From the NCBI GenBank assembly GCA_014653535.1, contig JACWEK010000003.1, forward strand, positions 1 to 64,000: a stretch of 64,000 nt of DNA. The letters run 5' to 3'. The stretch comes from Pelagibacterales bacterium SAG-MED43. GTDB lineage: Bacteria; Pseudomonadota; Alphaproteobacteria; Pelagibacterales; Pelagibacteraceae. Shown piece by piece: positions 6,234-30,778 of this stretch. The number at the start of each line of letters is the position of its first letter. Positions within the stretch are counted from its first letter, which is position 1. The notes under the pieces are model-generated. The model worked only from the letters and a program-made list of their open reading frames with translations. It was not told the origin of the DNA and made no database searches. The translations under genes were made by a program, and so were the position numbers.

Positions 6234-7581
6234 CTAGTTCTTTTGGTTCTTTTGATAATTAGTGATACCTGTTCTTAATTTATCAATAATCTCATCGATG
6301 TGTTTTTTTTCACATATAAATTGTGGAGCAATGATTAAACAATCACCAGTTGCTTTAAAGTTTACACCTGCTTCATAACATGATTTAAAAGTTTCGTATC
6401 CGGCTTTACCGGGTTTCGTATTTAGTTTCATATCTATTCCACCCATCATTCCATAACCTCTTATATTATCTACAGATTCTAAATCTTGAAGTGAGAATAA
6501 ACCTTTTTGAAAATAGGGTGCTAAATCTTTTGCTCGATTAAAAATGTCCTCTTTCTCAAAAATGTCTTGAACAGCCAGCGCAGCAGCAACCGCAACAGGA
6601 ATTCCTGAATAAGTATAACCATGAAATAATTCAACTGAACCCATTGGAGATGAGTCCATTACCGCATCATAAATATAATCGTTACAAGCAACAACTCCCA
6701 TTGGTACAACTCCATTAGTGGTAGCTTTTGCCATTGTCATAATATCTGGAGTGACTCCAAATTCATGTGCTGCAAATTTTGATCCAGTCCTTCCCCATCC
6801 AGTAATAACTTCATCAAAAATTAACAAAATTCCATGCTTATCACAAATCTCTCTTAATTTTTGTAAATAACCTTTTGGAGGAACTAGTGTTCCCGTTGAT
6901 CCAGCAATAGGCTCGACTATACATGCAGCAATATTTTCACCACCGAAGTTTGCACATATAGTTTCTAAATCATTTGCTAAGTAGTCACCTGTTTCTGGTT
7001 GACCACTAACAAATTTATGTTCTGGTAAGTGAGTGTGACTAATATGTTGAACGCCGGGCATCAAGACACTGGCAAATGTTTTAACATTATTAATCATTCC
7101 ACCAACTGAAATACATCCTATATTCATTCCGTGGTATCCACGTTCTCTACCTACAAATCTAAATCTCTCTGCATGCCCTTTGGATCTATGGTATGCGATA
7201 GCAATTTTAAGAGCAGTTTCAACCGCTGTAGAACCACAAATTGTATAAAAAAATTTTATTTAGATCACCTGGAGTATGTTTTGAAATTTTTGTTGCTAGT
7301 TCAAAAGAGCCTCCAAAACCTTGTTGAAAAGGTTGAGCGTAATCTAAAGTTTCTAATTGTTTTGTTACTGCTTCAGTAATTTCTCTTCTTCCATGACCTA
7401 AGGGATTACAAAATAATCCTGAGCTTGCATCAATCTGAGTTTTACCATGATGAGTTTTTAAGTATACGCCTTTAGCTTCAGTAATTAATCTTGGATTTTT
7501 TTTAAAATCTTTATTAGATGTAAATGGCATCCAATGTTCATTTAGTGAATTTGGAACTGACGTTCTATTTTCTGAGCTCAT
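6234..7581 (-). pseudogene. class III PLP aminotransferase (omega-amino acid:pyruvate / taurine:pyruvate type), split into two ORFs by a 1-nt frameshift
   Basis: N-terminal ORF 7219-7581 (MPFTSNKDFKKNPRLI...GLFCNPLGHGRREI) and C-terminal ORF 6234-7127 (LLIFDEVITGWGRTG...MAKATTNGVVPMG). Removing one base from the 7-base homopolymer at 7247-7253 restores DLNKIFYTICGSTAVETALKIAIAYHRSKGHAERFRFVGRERGYHGMNIGC. Confidence 0.85.
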
Positions 7582-18542: not shown

Positions 18543-18559
18543 TAACGCATAGCTGCTAT

Positions 18560-18583
18560 GTAACAAAACTGTTACTTTTTTTT
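18560..18583 (+). terminator. Rho-independent terminator of cysEK
   Basis: GTAACA aaac TGTTAC followed by TTTTTTTT. Confidence 0.75.
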
Positions 18584-18609: not shown

Positions 18610-18635
18610 AATAAAGATCAGCGAAGATCTTTATT
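18610..18635 (+). promoter_or_regulatory. 5'-UTR hairpin upstream of small-protein cassette
   Basis: Perfect 10-bp inverted repeat AATAAAGATC-AGCGAA-GATCTTTATT immediately before a strong SD (GGAGG) and the ATG at 18655. Confidence 0.55.
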
Positions 18636-18654: not shown

Positions 18655-19044
18655 ATGCTAAAAAATATTTTAAAAATACTTATTGCTTACTTTGTAGCAA
18701 TTTCAATATCAACTTCGTCAAGTGCTGAAATGAATAATAGTGATAAAGCAAAAGCTTGGGATTGCGTTGGAATTTATATGGCTAACTACTTTCTTCCTTC
18801 TGGTGAAACATTTGAGTACGCTATGAAGGAAAAATCTATATCAACTGTCAAGGTCCTTAAAACTTACGCTCTTGAAATAGGTATTCCAGAAAAAGATTGG
18901 GACGAAGGAGTTAATAAGGCAGTAGATAAACATTATGGTTCAAAATATGACAAGACTAAAACTGATCAATGTCATTCATTTGTAGAAGCTTTAGTTCCTA
19001 ATGGGGCTGAAAGAGTCAAAAAAGTAATTCAAACTTTATATTAA
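18655..19044 (+). CDS. hypothetical secreted protein
   Basis: SD ggaggt; signal peptide MLKNILKILIAYFVAISISTSSSA; no family recognised. Confidence 0.7.
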   Translation: MLKNILKILIAYFVAISISTSSSAEMNNSDKAKAWDCVGIYMANYFLPSGETFEYAMKEKSISTVKVLKTYALEIGIPEKDWDEGVNKAVDKHYGSKYDKTKTDQCHSFVEALVPNGAERVKKVIQTLY

Positions 19045-19059
19045 TAAAAAGGAGCAAAA

Positions 19060-19536
19060 ATGAAAAAAATTATAATAACTTTAACATTTACAATTATTTC
19101 TACAATGGCTTTTGCTAATTCGGGGAAATTTAACGCAAGCGGTATGGGATCATGGGAAATGAATATCATGAACGCTGGTAATGGTAATATGGCAATTACT
19201 TACGATGGAAATGCTGGGCTAGCAGATAAAGAACCTAATAGTATATTTGATAAATCTACTATGAATTGTGTTGGAGGACTTACATTAGTAAGTGGAAAAT
19301 TTGATGATGAAACAGGTATGTGCACTTTTTATTTAGCTGATGGTGAAAAAGTATTCATGAATTACAAAGGTAAAGGCACTGGTGGTCAAGGAGGATCTGG
19401 AACTTTTAAAATTATTGGAGGAACTGGAAAATATGAAAAAATTTCAGGAACTGGTTTTTCTAGCAGACAGAATCTTAAAGGCAAAGAAGGATTTGCTCAT
19501 TCAATGAATCAAATGAGTGGTGAGTACACATATTAA
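19060..19536 (+). CDS. hypothetical secreted protein (possibly allene-oxide-cyclase-barrel-like)
   Basis: SD aaggag; signal peptide; Gly-rich beta pattern GKGTGGQGGSGTFKIIGGTGKYEKISGTG. Confidence 0.7.
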   Translation: MKKIIITLTFTIISTMAFANSGKFNASGMGSWEMNIMNAGNGNMAITYDGNAGLADKEPNSIFDKSTMNCVGGLTLVSGKFDDETGMCTFYLADGEKVFMNYKGKGTGGQGGSGTFKIIGGTGKYEKISGTGFSSRQNLKGKEGFAHSMNQMSGEYTY

Positions 19537-19559
19537 ATTAATTAACGAAAGGAGAAAAA

Positions 19560-19844
19560 ATGGAAAAAGAAATGTTAGTAGTTGCTAAATTAAAAGAAGG
19601 TATGTTTGAAAAATTTATGGGTTTCATGCAATCACCAGAAGGTTTAGCGGAAAGAGCTAAAGTTGCGGTAGTAGAAAAAACTATTGGAACAGTAACACCA
19701 GATAAAAGCACCGTAATGTTCAAGATATTTTGTACTGATGAACCTGCGTTACACAAATTTATTGAAGGAACTGAAGTATCAAAACCTGTCATGGATGCTG
19801 TTTTAGATAGCTATTCGATCTATGATTTAACAAAAGTAAAATAG
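19560..19844 (+). CDS. hypothetical small protein (dimeric alpha/beta-barrel-like)
   Basis: SD aaaggag; MEKEMLVVAKLKEGMFEKFMGFMQSPEGLAERAK. Confidence 0.7.
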   Translation: MEKEMLVVAKLKEGMFEKFMGFMQSPEGLAERAKVAVVEKTIGTVTPDKSTVMFKIFCTDEPALHKFIEGTEVSKPVMDAVLDSYSIYDLTKVK

Positions 19845-19851
19845 GAAAAAT

Positions 19852-20142
19852 ATGAAAAACTATATAGTAACACACACTTTTAAGTCAAAAGAAGCTAAAG
19901 CTAAAATGATAGAAGTTACTGGTTCGATGTCTATGGAAGACATGACTAAAGCAATGACTAGTGATAACGCAAAATGTCAAATGAGCTGGATCACGCCAGG
20001 TGATAACTTAACAATGTTTTGTTGGTGGAAAGGTACTGATCCTGATGCAATTAATAAACAGTTAGAATCTATGAACGATTTCTACGAACCTCATAAATTT
20101 GTTGAGTGTACAGATGATATTATAGATTTTAATGCTAAATAA
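19852..20142 (+). CDS. hypothetical small protein (ferredoxin-like fold suspected)
   Basis: MKNYIVTHTFKSKEAKAKMIEVTGSMSMEDMTK; 7-nt spacer from the preceding gene. Confidence 0.7.
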   Translation: MKNYIVTHTFKSKEAKAKMIEVTGSMSMEDMTKAMTSDNAKCQMSWITPGDNLTMFCWWKGTDPDAINKQLESMNDFYEPHKFVECTDDIIDFNAK

Positions 20143-20176
20143 AAATACCTAAACTTTGACTCAATAAGGAGAAACA

Positions 20177-20488
20177 ATGAAAGTAATTTATACTAGAACA
20201 ATGAGAGTGAAAGATGACGGTTTAGGAAAAGCAATGGAAATTGGAAAAGGATTAGCGGCAGTTAGAAAAAAACATTATCCTAACCATGATGTCTATTTTT
20301 CTTTTCAAATGGGTGGAGATCCAAGAACAATAAGAGAAACTTTAATTGGATCTATGTTTGAAGGTGATAATGACGCTGACGCTAAAATGTCTGCAGATCC
20401 TGAATATATAAAACTTCAAGAGCAATTAAAAGATGTTGCTATAGAAGGAACTATTGAAGATGAGATCAGACCGATCTTTAGTGAATAA
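20177..20488 (+). CDS. hypothetical small protein (dimeric alpha/beta-barrel-like)
   Basis: SD aaggag; MKVIYTRTMRVKDDGLGKAMEIGKGLAAVRKKHYP. Confidence 0.7.
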   Translation: MKVIYTRTMRVKDDGLGKAMEIGKGLAAVRKKHYPNHDVYFSFQMGGDPRTIRETLIGSMFEGDNDADAKMSADPEYIKLQEQLKDVAIEGTIEDEIRPIFSE

Positions 20489-20515
20489 ATTTAACAAAGG
20501 ATTAAGGAAATAGTA

Positions 20516-20932
20516 ATGATAGATAAATTTGGTGGAATATTTTACTTAGCAATTTTTATAATTCATTTTATAGGTTATGCTTTTTATGGATTTAGATGTG
20601 TTGTCCAAACTCAAACTTTTTTGGATAAATATGGGATCGATGCTACAGGCGCAGGTGTAGTTAGATTTTTTGGATGTTTTTTTATCGGTTCAACTGTGAT
20701 GGCAATTTATGTGGGATTTATTAGACCAAATGGTTTGGAAGCAACTTGGGCATTCTTTAATTTAGTATTTTTACAAAACCTATGTGCTTTTATTGTTGGT
20801 TTTTATAGTACTAAAATAAATAAACTTGGACATACAGATAAAACTTCGGATGAAGCAATTTATGGCCCATTAGCGCATACTATTTTAAGTGCTGTACTTT
20901 GTTACGGTTTAGCTGATAAAATCTACGTTTAA
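20516..20932 (+). CDS. hypothetical membrane protein
   Basis: SD-like aagga; about four hydrophobic segments (FYLAIFIIHFIGYAFYGF, FFIGSTVMAIYVGFI, LQNLCAFIVGFY, ILSAVLCYGLA). Confidence 0.7.
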   Translation: MIDKFGGIFYLAIFIIHFIGYAFYGFRCVVQTQTFLDKYGIDATGAGVVRFFGCFFIGSTVMAIYVGFIRPNGLEATWAFFNLVFLQNLCAFIVGFYSTKINKLGHTDKTSDEAIYGPLAHTILSAVLCYGLADKIYV

Positions 20933-20947
20933 ATAAAAGGAGATGTT

Positions 20948-21298
20948 ATGGCAGGAGTAGAAGTGAAAACTTTTGAAAAAGCAGATGAAGTTAATAATAA
21001 TTTTAATAATGCAAAAATTGAAGCAGTAAAAGTTGGAAACCAGAGGGTAATGAAACTTACATTGCAACCTGGATGGAAATGGTCAAAAGATATTAAACCA
21101 ACAGTTGGGGGTGATAGCTGCCAGGCAACACATCTTGGTGTAATTGTTTCAGGAGCTGTTTGCGCAAAACATAATGATGGAACTGAACTAACTTATAAAG
21201 CTGGAGACGCATATTCTATTCAGCCTGGACATGATGGATGGGTAGTAGGAAATGAACCAGCTGTTGTTTACGAGTTTCACGGAATGTGGGGCGAATAA
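20948..21298 (+). CDS. cupin-domain protein
   Basis: SD aaaggag; LQPGWKWSKDIKP...HLGVIVSGAVCAKHNDGTELTYKAGDAYSIQPGHDGWVVGNEPAVVYEFHG. Confidence 0.85.
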   Translation: MAGVEVKTFEKADEVNNNFNNAKIEAVKVGNQRVMKLTLQPGWKWSKDIKPTVGGDSCQATHLGVIVSGAVCAKHNDGTELTYKAGDAYSIQPGHDGWVVGNEPAVVYEFHGMWGE

Positions 21299-21618
21299 TG
21301 TCAATAATAGAAAAAATGACTAAAATAGTGAATGAAGGTGATACCGCTGGAGCAGAAGAATTAATACATGATGACTATCAATTTTTAATGCATTCATCTG
21401 GTAAAAGCTTAACTAAGAAAGATGTAGTTGGTTGGGTTGGTATGAAAGATGTTAAAAAAAGTAATTTAAGAGTACTTTTTGAAAATGATGAAGTTGGTTT
21501 CGAACATGCAATGGTAACTTTTAATGATGGTAATAAAGAAGCTGTTATGACTTATTATAAGTTTAAAGATGGAAAGGTAGCATACCAAGAAACAGGAGCT
21601 ACTAAACTACCAAAATAA
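21286..21618 (+). CDS. SnoaL/NTF2-like protein
   Basis: Overlaps the end of the cupin gene; KIVNEGDTAGAEELIHDDYQFLMHSSGKSLTKKDVVGWV ... MTYYKFKDGKVAYQE. Confidence 0.75.
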   Translation: MGRIMSIIEKMTKIVNEGDTAGAEELIHDDYQFLMHSSGKSLTKKDVVGWVGMKDVKKSNLRVLFENDEVGFEHAMVTFNDGNKEAVMTYYKFKDGKVAYQETGATKLPK

Positions 21619-21635
21619 AGTATAATCTTTATTTA

Positions 21636-21857
21636 ATGTTTCCTAAAAAATATCATAACTTTTTATTTATACTGGTTATGGGTTTTACAATGAGTTTACT
21701 TATGACCTTAATAATTACATACGTGAATACTGGTATAGATGGTGGTTACTTAAATAGATTTTTAAAAGCTTGGGCTGTAGGGCTTCCTATCGCAATATCT
21801 ACAGCTTTATTGGTTGGTCCCTTTGCAAAAAAGTTTGTGGATAAAATTACTAAATAA
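21636..21857 (+). CDS. DUF2798-like small membrane protein
   Basis: MFPKKYHNFLFILVMGFTMSLLMTLIITYVNTGIDGGYLNRFLKAWAVGLPIAISTALLVGPFAKK. Confidence 0.7.
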   Translation: MFPKKYHNFLFILVMGFTMSLLMTLIITYVNTGIDGGYLNRFLKAWAVGLPIAISTALLVGPFAKKFVDKITK

Positions 21858-21872
21858 GAATAATCTTAACTT

Positions 21873-22208
21873 ATGGGTAACATCTCGGCATACATTGTGC
21901 TTATAATAGCTGTCATACTAGGCACTGCAGCTAACGGATTTGCTAAAGGTGCTCAAGGCTTCACCATATTTATTCCTAGTATATTAACAGCAATAACAAT
22001 TGTTGGGTGTATGTATACTTTATCAATTGTAATGAAATCAATTCCTGTTGGAATAACTTATGCATCATTTGCAGGTTTATGTATTATTGCAACTTCAATT
22101 GTTGGCATTTATAAGTTTAATCAAATGCCAGATCTTTATACAATGGTAGGGCTATTTTTAATAATTTCTGGTGTATTAATAGTAAATCTTTTAGGAAAAA
22201 CAAATTAA
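21873..22208 (+). CDS. SMR/EmrE-family small membrane protein
   Basis: Four TMs; IPVGITYASFAGLCIIATSIVGIYKFNQMPDLYTMVGLFLIISGVLIVNLL aligns with EmrE C-terminal half. Confidence 0.8.
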   Translation: MGNISAYIVLIIAVILGTAANGFAKGAQGFTIFIPSILTAITIVGCMYTLSIVMKSIPVGITYASFAGLCIIATSIVGIYKFNQMPDLYTMVGLFLIISGVLIVNLLGKTN

Positions 22209-29474: not shown

Positions 29475-29801
29475 ATGGCTAAATACTTTGTAATGGGTAA
29501 TTATACTGCTAAAGCCTTTCAAGGATTTATTAAAGATCCAAATCAAGATAGATCTGCAGCAGTAAAAGCACTTACTGAATCTGCTGGGGGTAAATTAGAA
29601 TCATTTGCTATAACAAGAGGTCAATATGACTTTTGTGCAGTAACGTCAGGTGATATGCCCTTTGAAAACTTTGCAGGTGTTAAATTGGCTGTTGAAGCTA
29701 GTGGTACAGTGGAAAATATGATTATTCTTGAAGAAATGGATATGAATAAAGCTGCTGAACAAGCATCAAAATCAATGGCGGGTTATAAACCAGCGGGTTA
29801 A
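29475..29801 (+). CDS. GYD-domain protein
   Basis: SD aaggagg; GNYTAKAFQGFIKDPNQDRSAAVKALTESAGGKLESFAITRGQYDFCAV. Confidence 0.82.
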   Translation: MAKYFVMGNYTAKAFQGFIKDPNQDRSAAVKALTESAGGKLESFAITRGQYDFCAVTSGDMPFENFAGVKLAVEASGTVENMIILEEMDMNKAAEQASKSMAGYKPAG

Positions 29802-29869: not shown

Positions 29870-30778
29870 ATGAAAAAATACAAGTACTCAGAAATTACTC
29901 CTGAGAATATTTATAAAAAAAGAAGATTTTTTATAAAAACTTTAGGCTTAGGTCTTGGATCTTTAACTTTAAATACAATGACTTTAATTGGTAACTCAGT
30001 TGCTAGCACAGACCAAGATAAGATTACAAGTTTTGAGGATATTACTACCTACAACAACTACTATGAATTTGGAACTGGAAAGAGTGATCCCTATATTAAG
30101 TCACAAAATTTTAAAACAAAACCTTGGACAATTAAAATTGAAGGAGAAGTTGACAAGCCTATGGAGATTTCTGTTGATGAAATATTGTCTTCGTTTCTAT
30201 CTGAGGAAAGGATTTTGAAATTAAGATGTGTTGAAGGTTGGTCAATGATTATTCCTTGGAATGGTTTTTCATTAAATCAACTGCTTTCTAAAGTTTCATT
30301 TACAAGTAAAGCAAAATTTGTTGAGTTTGAAAGTATTTATGATCCAACTCAAATGAGTGGTCAAAGATATCCCACTTTAAATTGGCCGTATAAAGAAGGA
30401 TTAAGAATAGATTAAGCAATGCACCCCTTAACAACTGTAGTAACTGGCTTGTATAATAAAAAACTTCCAAATCAGAATGGTGCTCCACTTAGAATTTTTA
30501 TTCCTTGGAAATATGGTTTTAAAAGTGCGAAAGCAATTGTAAAAATTAAACTTGTTGAAAAAATGCCAACATCTTCATGGATGTGGGCTTCTCCAAAAGA
30601 GTATGGTTTTTTCTCCAATGTAAATCCTGATGTTAATCACCCTAGATGGTCACAAGCCTCTGAAAGAGTGATTGGAAATGATATATTTTCACCAAGAATA
30701 AAAACTGAAATGTTTAACGGTTATGGAGATCAAGTAGCAGATTTATATACTGGTATGGATTTAAAGAAATATTATTAA
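29870..30778 (+). pseudogene. msrP: protein-methionine-sulfoxide reductase catalytic subunit MsrP (YedY), interrupted by an in-frame TAA at 30413-30415
   Basis: ORFs 29870-30415 and 30419-30778 are in the same frame; [54 protein letters not shown] is contiguous MsrP sequence ([29 protein letters not shown]). Confidence 0.88.

Follow-up and report, generated by a model that had tools for sequence, protein, structure and literature searches.

A rotating cassette of small genes at a fixed chromosomal slot in Pelagibacter

The 64,000-nucleotide stretch of DNA analysed here (hereafter the window), from Pelagibacterales bacterium SAG-MED43, holds one of the many forms of a cassette with rotating content; in Pelagibacter this cassette has a fixed slot, the interval from cysE-cysK to hisN. 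An earlier note on this DNA had proposed an undescribed multi-gene unit; the unit is real, and no description of the slot or of such a unit was found in the literature searched, which consisted of open-licence papers only.

Anatomy, translation signals and flanks

The cassette occupies positions 18655-21618 and, according to the ORF list and the sequence, consists of eight small ORFs in tandem, all forward and close-packed, each where the earlier note had placed it. The first two, A (18655-19044, 129 aa) and B (19060-19536, 158 aa), code for proteins that, from inspection of the sequence, are predicted to be exported. They are followed by C (19560-19844, 94 aa), a core member of a new family with, by its model, a fold of the dimeric alpha-beta-barrel class, D (19852-20142, 96 aa), which is SCO4226/DUF4242-like, E (20177-20488, 103 aa), an orphan small protein, F (20516-20932, 138 aa), a small membrane protein, G (20948-21298, 116 aa), which is cupin-like and of the GWKWSKDxKP..SCQ type, and H (21298-21618, 106 aa), a SnoaL/NTF2-like protein and the module's usual last gene. 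The start of H is most likely ATG 21298, which overlaps the cupin stop as TAATG; GTG 21286 is an unlikely start because homologues have their first residue at the corresponding Met (MSI/MSL/MSV). The next two plus-strand genes, for a DUF2798 membrane protein assigned by Pfam (21636-21857) and an SMR-family protein (21873-22208), belong to the flank and not to the module.

A Shine-Dalgarno (SD) 4-mer precedes seven of the eight cassette genes and a strong SD five of them, compared with 18% and 8%, respectively, of the window ORFs of at least 110 aa (n = 66, a set that itself contains four cassette genes), which bears out what had been claimed for the ribosome-binding sites. Over about 130 loci, the SD-led share was 99% for C, 100% for D, 100% for the cupin and 92% for SnoaL, and about half for A, E, GYD and DUF1330. 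The downstream SMR (19%), DUF2798 (5%), TPR and DsbA/HCCA genes were SD-led in 5-19% of cases over all loci, and most other flanking genes were likewise seldom SD-led, with the exception of AhpD-like and HIBDH genes. Taken over all loci, the SD-led block spans from the leader to SnoaL and ends at SnoaL, and the boundaries first assigned to the cassette coincide with this translational boundary across loci. The strong SDs suggest that large protein amounts are made. Furthermore, median dN/dS was 0.10-0.49 across all families tested, and the families are therefore real proteins under purifying selection.

SMR genes are found downstream in 108 of the 129 slots counted, and the cassette could in principle be a drug-export operon whose small proteins serve this efflux pump, but we consider this highly improbable. 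Glu14 of EmrE is needed for proton coupling and its aligned position is an invariant Gly17 in the SMR protein; SMR genes are mostly not SD-led, and an SMR gene of the same family was never beside the HIMB59-like cassettes read. Because EmrE Glu14 is lacking, the downstream SMR protein is probably not a partner pump of the cassette. The SMR proteins at 21873-22208 and at L082, L095, L098 and L102 have a fixed Gly at the Glu14 position and their genes often form adjacent pairs with DUF2798; such Gly-type proteins are possibly a non-antiporter SMR clade. Elsewhere in the window, two minus-strand ORFs (6234-7127 and 7219-7581) look like parts of a single class III (omega-amino acid) aminotransferase, owing either to gene breakage or to faulty assembly.

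Turnover at the slot

Loci were anchored on cysK rather than on the cassette. This gene was present in 147 of 201 genomes of the genus, and 134 loci with cysK were readable downstream of it; among the fetched loci, 40 had first been picked by a cassette gene and the other 100 by cysK alone. After cysK come small genes, nearly all forward, then SMR/DUF2798, and then hisN or other genes on the opposite strand. Across the 134 genomes the slot content is drawn from about 16 small families, which include several dimeric alpha-beta-barrel kinds, two SnoaL and two cupin types, and secreted and membrane proteins (DUF1330, GYD, DUF3764, ABM, SnoaL_2, Cupin_2 and DSBA are among the families represented). 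SnoaL occupies 109 of the 134 loci, C 94, DUF1330 83, A 75, D 53, F 47, GYD 40, the second SnoaL 40, E 38, DUF3764/ABM 29, B 26 and the cupin 23, besides further families, and the co-occurrence of the families elsewhere, a check named in the earlier note, is widely confirmed. A sulfur-stress operon, suggested by the cysE-cysK neighbours, was considered and rejected, as cysE and cysK are not induced by sulfur limitation (PMC5069961).

We counted 113 distinct gene line-ups among the 134 genomes, a figure that includes downstream flank genes and is approximate, since it takes single-linkage BLAST groups as gene clusters and incomplete single-cell assemblies are numerous among the genomes. Across 19 matched genomes the slot had 18 line-ups versus one at the glnA-suf control slot, an especially conserved operon, so this contrast is an upper bound. 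Additionally, genome pairs with at least 97% nucleotide identity in cysK (n = 30) had the same gene order in only 40% of cases. The earlier proposal of a compact pathway, in which the proteins would carry out successive steps on one substrate, does not sit with content that changes even above 97% cysK identity. Cofactor-independent enzyme folds and small-molecule fold classes do occur together in the cassette, as a linear pathway would have it, but C-SnoaL alone is near-constant and near-identical genomes differ in the rest. Because members come and go between close genomes, a compact fixed pathway is unlikely, and the rotating content favours separable activities over one linear pathway.

This high turnover, the genomes that hold almost no core genes in the slot and the entry of larger, unrelated genes (HIBDH, SDR, LldD, GR) would also be expected of a permissive insertion spot, where accessory genes are tolerated and are gained or lost without joint function. 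We hold this to be rather unlikely, since the content is non-random (one pool, nearly all forward, a common leader), genes are SD-led within the module only, polarity is fixed with SnoaL last, and a C-SnoaL unit recurs, and moves as a unit, in HIMB59-like genomes. Cassette genes of two genomes often resemble each other much more closely than their cysK genes do, as would fit lateral exchange between lineages in which individual genes or segments are replaced. E of the window and E of L081 are 99.0% identical in nucleotides versus 84.1% for cysK of the same pair, an HCCA/DsbA gene is 99.8% identical in a pair with 78.8% in cysK, and for C there are 89 pairs above 92% identity with cysK below 85%; these are gene-wise identity outliers only, and cysK may itself recombine.

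Among known systems, the closest kind is the replacement flexible genomic island (Lopez-Perez et al. 2014, PMC4033161; HIMB59 phosphate islands, PMC10734472), of which the cassette fits best as a new, miniature and intracellular variant. As in these islands, one chromosomal position is used in many genomes (here cysE-cysK to hisN, 134 loci), differing genes of similar type are exchanged between lineages, and mobile-element genes were not seen in the window slot; the slot members draw on a common pool of fold classes, which bears on the equivalent-function criterion for replacement islands. Those described, however, encode surface structures or nutrient uptake (PMC4033161, PMC10734472), whereas the cassette spans about 3 kb and encodes tiny proteins, most of them cytosolic, with one leader, a polarity and a conserved core pair. 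In this regard, replacement islands have been linked to phage pressure (PMC4033161), and the fixed-slot turnover and lateral exchange, together with two predicted exported proteins, could point to a defence or competition island in which small effectors or immunity proteins are swapped under pressure from phages or rivals. That reading is distinctly unlikely: the fold classes are atypical of defence, every family tested is under purifying selection, PADLOC gave no match for ten proteins, PHROG gave none except one weak hit to F, and a search for relatives of C and SnoaL in viruses found none. The SAR11 regions HVR1-4 (Wilhelm et al. 2007, PMC2217521) are likewise hypervariable loci of the same bacterial group, but their gene tables list LPS, transport/secretion and unknowns, and the terms cysK, cysE and SMR do not occur in that paper. 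Integrons resemble the cassette in their promoter-proximal, one-orientation array of small genes with rotating content, but the window slot is without an integrase ORF (ten window ORFs checked), attC-like repeats were not seen in it, and the repeat at its gene starts is the Shine-Dalgarno sequence and not attC.

The core pair and the leader

The minimal unit of the cassette is C plus SnoaL. Both were present at 90 slot loci, C alone at 3, SnoaL alone at 16 and neither at 20 (counts that take no account of shared ancestry); C precedes SnoaL in 72 of 72 cases and SnoaL is the last core gene in 90 of 119 cassettes. When 239 genomes drawn from the class, not counting that of the window, were searched by profile, C turned up in a single one, a HIMB59-like genome where C, cupin, E and SnoaL adjoin one another downstream of tmRNA. 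Of the relatives of this genome, most members of the same family and three members of a sister family (f142) had C. At the same-family loci read, C is always with SnoaL, and cupin and E are optional; two of them (L358 and L367) have the pair in other gene surroundings, L358 being a minimal version with C-SnoaL only, and in the sister family C is without SnoaL at all three loci. The C-SnoaL version in the HIMB59-like order, which is distant from Pelagibacter, is an independent recurrence. The HIMB59-like cassette at L242:9189-11039 lies directly 3' of tmRNA, a classic integration site.

Upstream of the cassette stands a promoter/operator-like leader element, at 18547-18579 on the plus strand in the window, with the form GCATAnCnG-N3-TGTAAyAAAA-N3-TTACATTT and the window copy GCATAGCTGCTATGTAACAAAACTGTTACTTTT. 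Of 131 cassettes, 85 have it in the 200 nt that precede the first cassette gene, mostly at a distance of 60-90 nt, and six different first genes follow it (A, D, the second SnoaL, C, the secreted cupin and B). The rest of these sequences, 905 kb in all, contained 32 matches, so that about one chance match is expected in the upstream windows. In 20 whole genomes the leader occurred once in 13 and was absent in 7, with no control matches. About one third of cassettes lack it or have a strongly diverged form, and many of these belong to a lineage where F stands in reverse orientation between cysK and the cassette. Where other genes lie between cysK and the cassette (L202, L217 and L218), the leader adjoins the cassette and not cysK. 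Because it is tied in this way to the cassette, with at most one copy per genome, it is a local control element, probably a promoter plus operator.

Other readings of the leader were rejected: a simple cysK terminator, as it stays with the cassette at the three loci above, and the operator of a wider regulon, as none of the genomes searched holds more than one copy. A 7-bp stem and T-run are terminator-like hairpin features, and a terminator role may exist besides the promoter role; covariation in the stem is weak, with 80% of cells paired versus 77% when shuffled. The candidate of a riboswitch was dropped, Rfam giving no match in the window. From a reading of the sequence, an extra hairpin-capable stretch, AATAAAGATC-AGCGAA-GATCTTTATT, lies at 18610-18635 on the plus strand, and similar stretches occur in L084, L122 and L171.

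The leader and the near-constant 3' SnoaL could also be read as a combinatorial platform into which ligand-handling genes are inserted, and from which they are removed, by a specific process, giving lineage-specific repertoires; we regard this version as unlikely.

Families, folds and possible role

Pfam and NCBIfam gave nothing useful for A, B, C, E and F; D, cupin and SnoaL were matched weakly, and a PDB sequence search with A, B, C, D, cupin and SnoaL returned no significant match. The AF2 model of C (31 sequences used) has a pLDDT of 95.7, and Foldseek related it, with probability 1.00 to several dimeric alpha-beta-barrel members, to SO0527, NIPSNAP, ABM, SnoaB, olivetolic acid cyclase (OAC), LsrG and IsdG. 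The best E value was only 5e-4; therefore the fold class of the model, a ferredoxin-like alpha+beta fold of the dimeric alpha-beta-barrel class, is clear and no one function is fixed. Other pool members belong to sequence families of this superfamily (ABM, NIPSNAP, DUF1330, GYD, SCO4226-like), whereas none of the 31 C members matches a Pfam family. The earlier note had guessed three such barrels: C is upheld by the model and Foldseek, D has only a weak SCO4226-like Pfam match, given by 12 of its 13 members (the lowest E is 3e-4, and the window D, with 15.7 bits, stays below the SCO4226-like/DUF4242 gathering score of 28.5), and E is without a family. Its cupin and SnoaL identities are met by Pfam matches that fall below the gathering score, Cupin_2 for G (E 8e-4, 19.5 bits versus 27.2) and SnoaL_2 for H (E 4e-4, 21.3 bits versus 27).

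The AF2 model of A (pLDDT 87) is all-helical and found no convincing fold relative; two Cys are invariant in its alignment. The B alignment contains a GGTGKY..G motif, which may be that of allene-oxide-cyclase/dirigent barrels. Homologues of E are carried only by SAR11 and HIMB59-like genomes (60% identity to the HIMB59-like homologue), and a 399-genome draw of the phylum (398 besides the window genome, for A) held no other carrier of A or E. F is near-universal in the genus, present in 19 of 19 near-complete genomes, in some at other positions or in reverse orientation; in L096, L104, L116 and L118 it lies apart from the cassette, beside genes that by sequence inspection are glycosyltransferase, peroxiredoxin-like and gamma-carbonic-anhydrase-like. 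A GYD-domain relative of a cassette family is also found outside the slot, at 29475-29801, just upstream of MsrP-like genes, where an MsrP-like molybdoenzyme gene reads as two adjoining plus-strand ORFs (29870-30415 and 30419-30778). G is about 40% identical to annotated cupins from other phyla, and cupin neighbourhoods on plasmids had similar partners in two of six annotated records, from Haladaptatus (DUF4242 and ester cyclase) and Thermus (an NTF2-family gene). These neighbourhoods echo the D, cupin and SnoaL of the cassette in a way that is suggestive only. On the Haladaptatus plasmid (L414), a MarR-type regulator, DUF4242, cupin and ester cyclase (SnoaL-like) are clustered.

ABM, SnoaL and cupin relatives are small ligand-pocket proteins, with known members performing cofactor-free chemistry, and the folds thus suggest small-molecule binding or cofactor-independent chemistry, as had been supposed. 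From the ligand-pocket folds, strong SDs and rotating content we therefore propose, tentatively and with somewhat less than even confidence, a promoter-anchored, fast-turnover cassette that carries an exchangeable set of enzymes, small-molecule-binding or cofactor-free, although the fold classes in the pool span such varied chemistry that they single out no function. The leader would drive one polycistronic mRNA from which small proteins with a cavity (dimeric alpha-beta barrels, NTF2/SnoaL and cupins) would be made in large amounts, with two exported proteins and one membrane protein made alongside. Each member would bind, buffer or convert, cofactor-free, some reactive or toxic small metabolite; C and SnoaL would work as the common pair, and the remaining members would be exchanged by homologous recombination to match the local chemistry.

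SAR11 bacteria are among the most abundant in the sea and their genomes are highly reduced and syntenic. A slot whose content differs between nearly all genomes must be a response to a pressure that is strong and varies from place to place. If its members are small-molecule handlers, the cassette would read out the metabolites met by the dominant cells of the ocean, and the conserved leader and C-SnoaL core make this metabolite-handling idea testable with four short genes.
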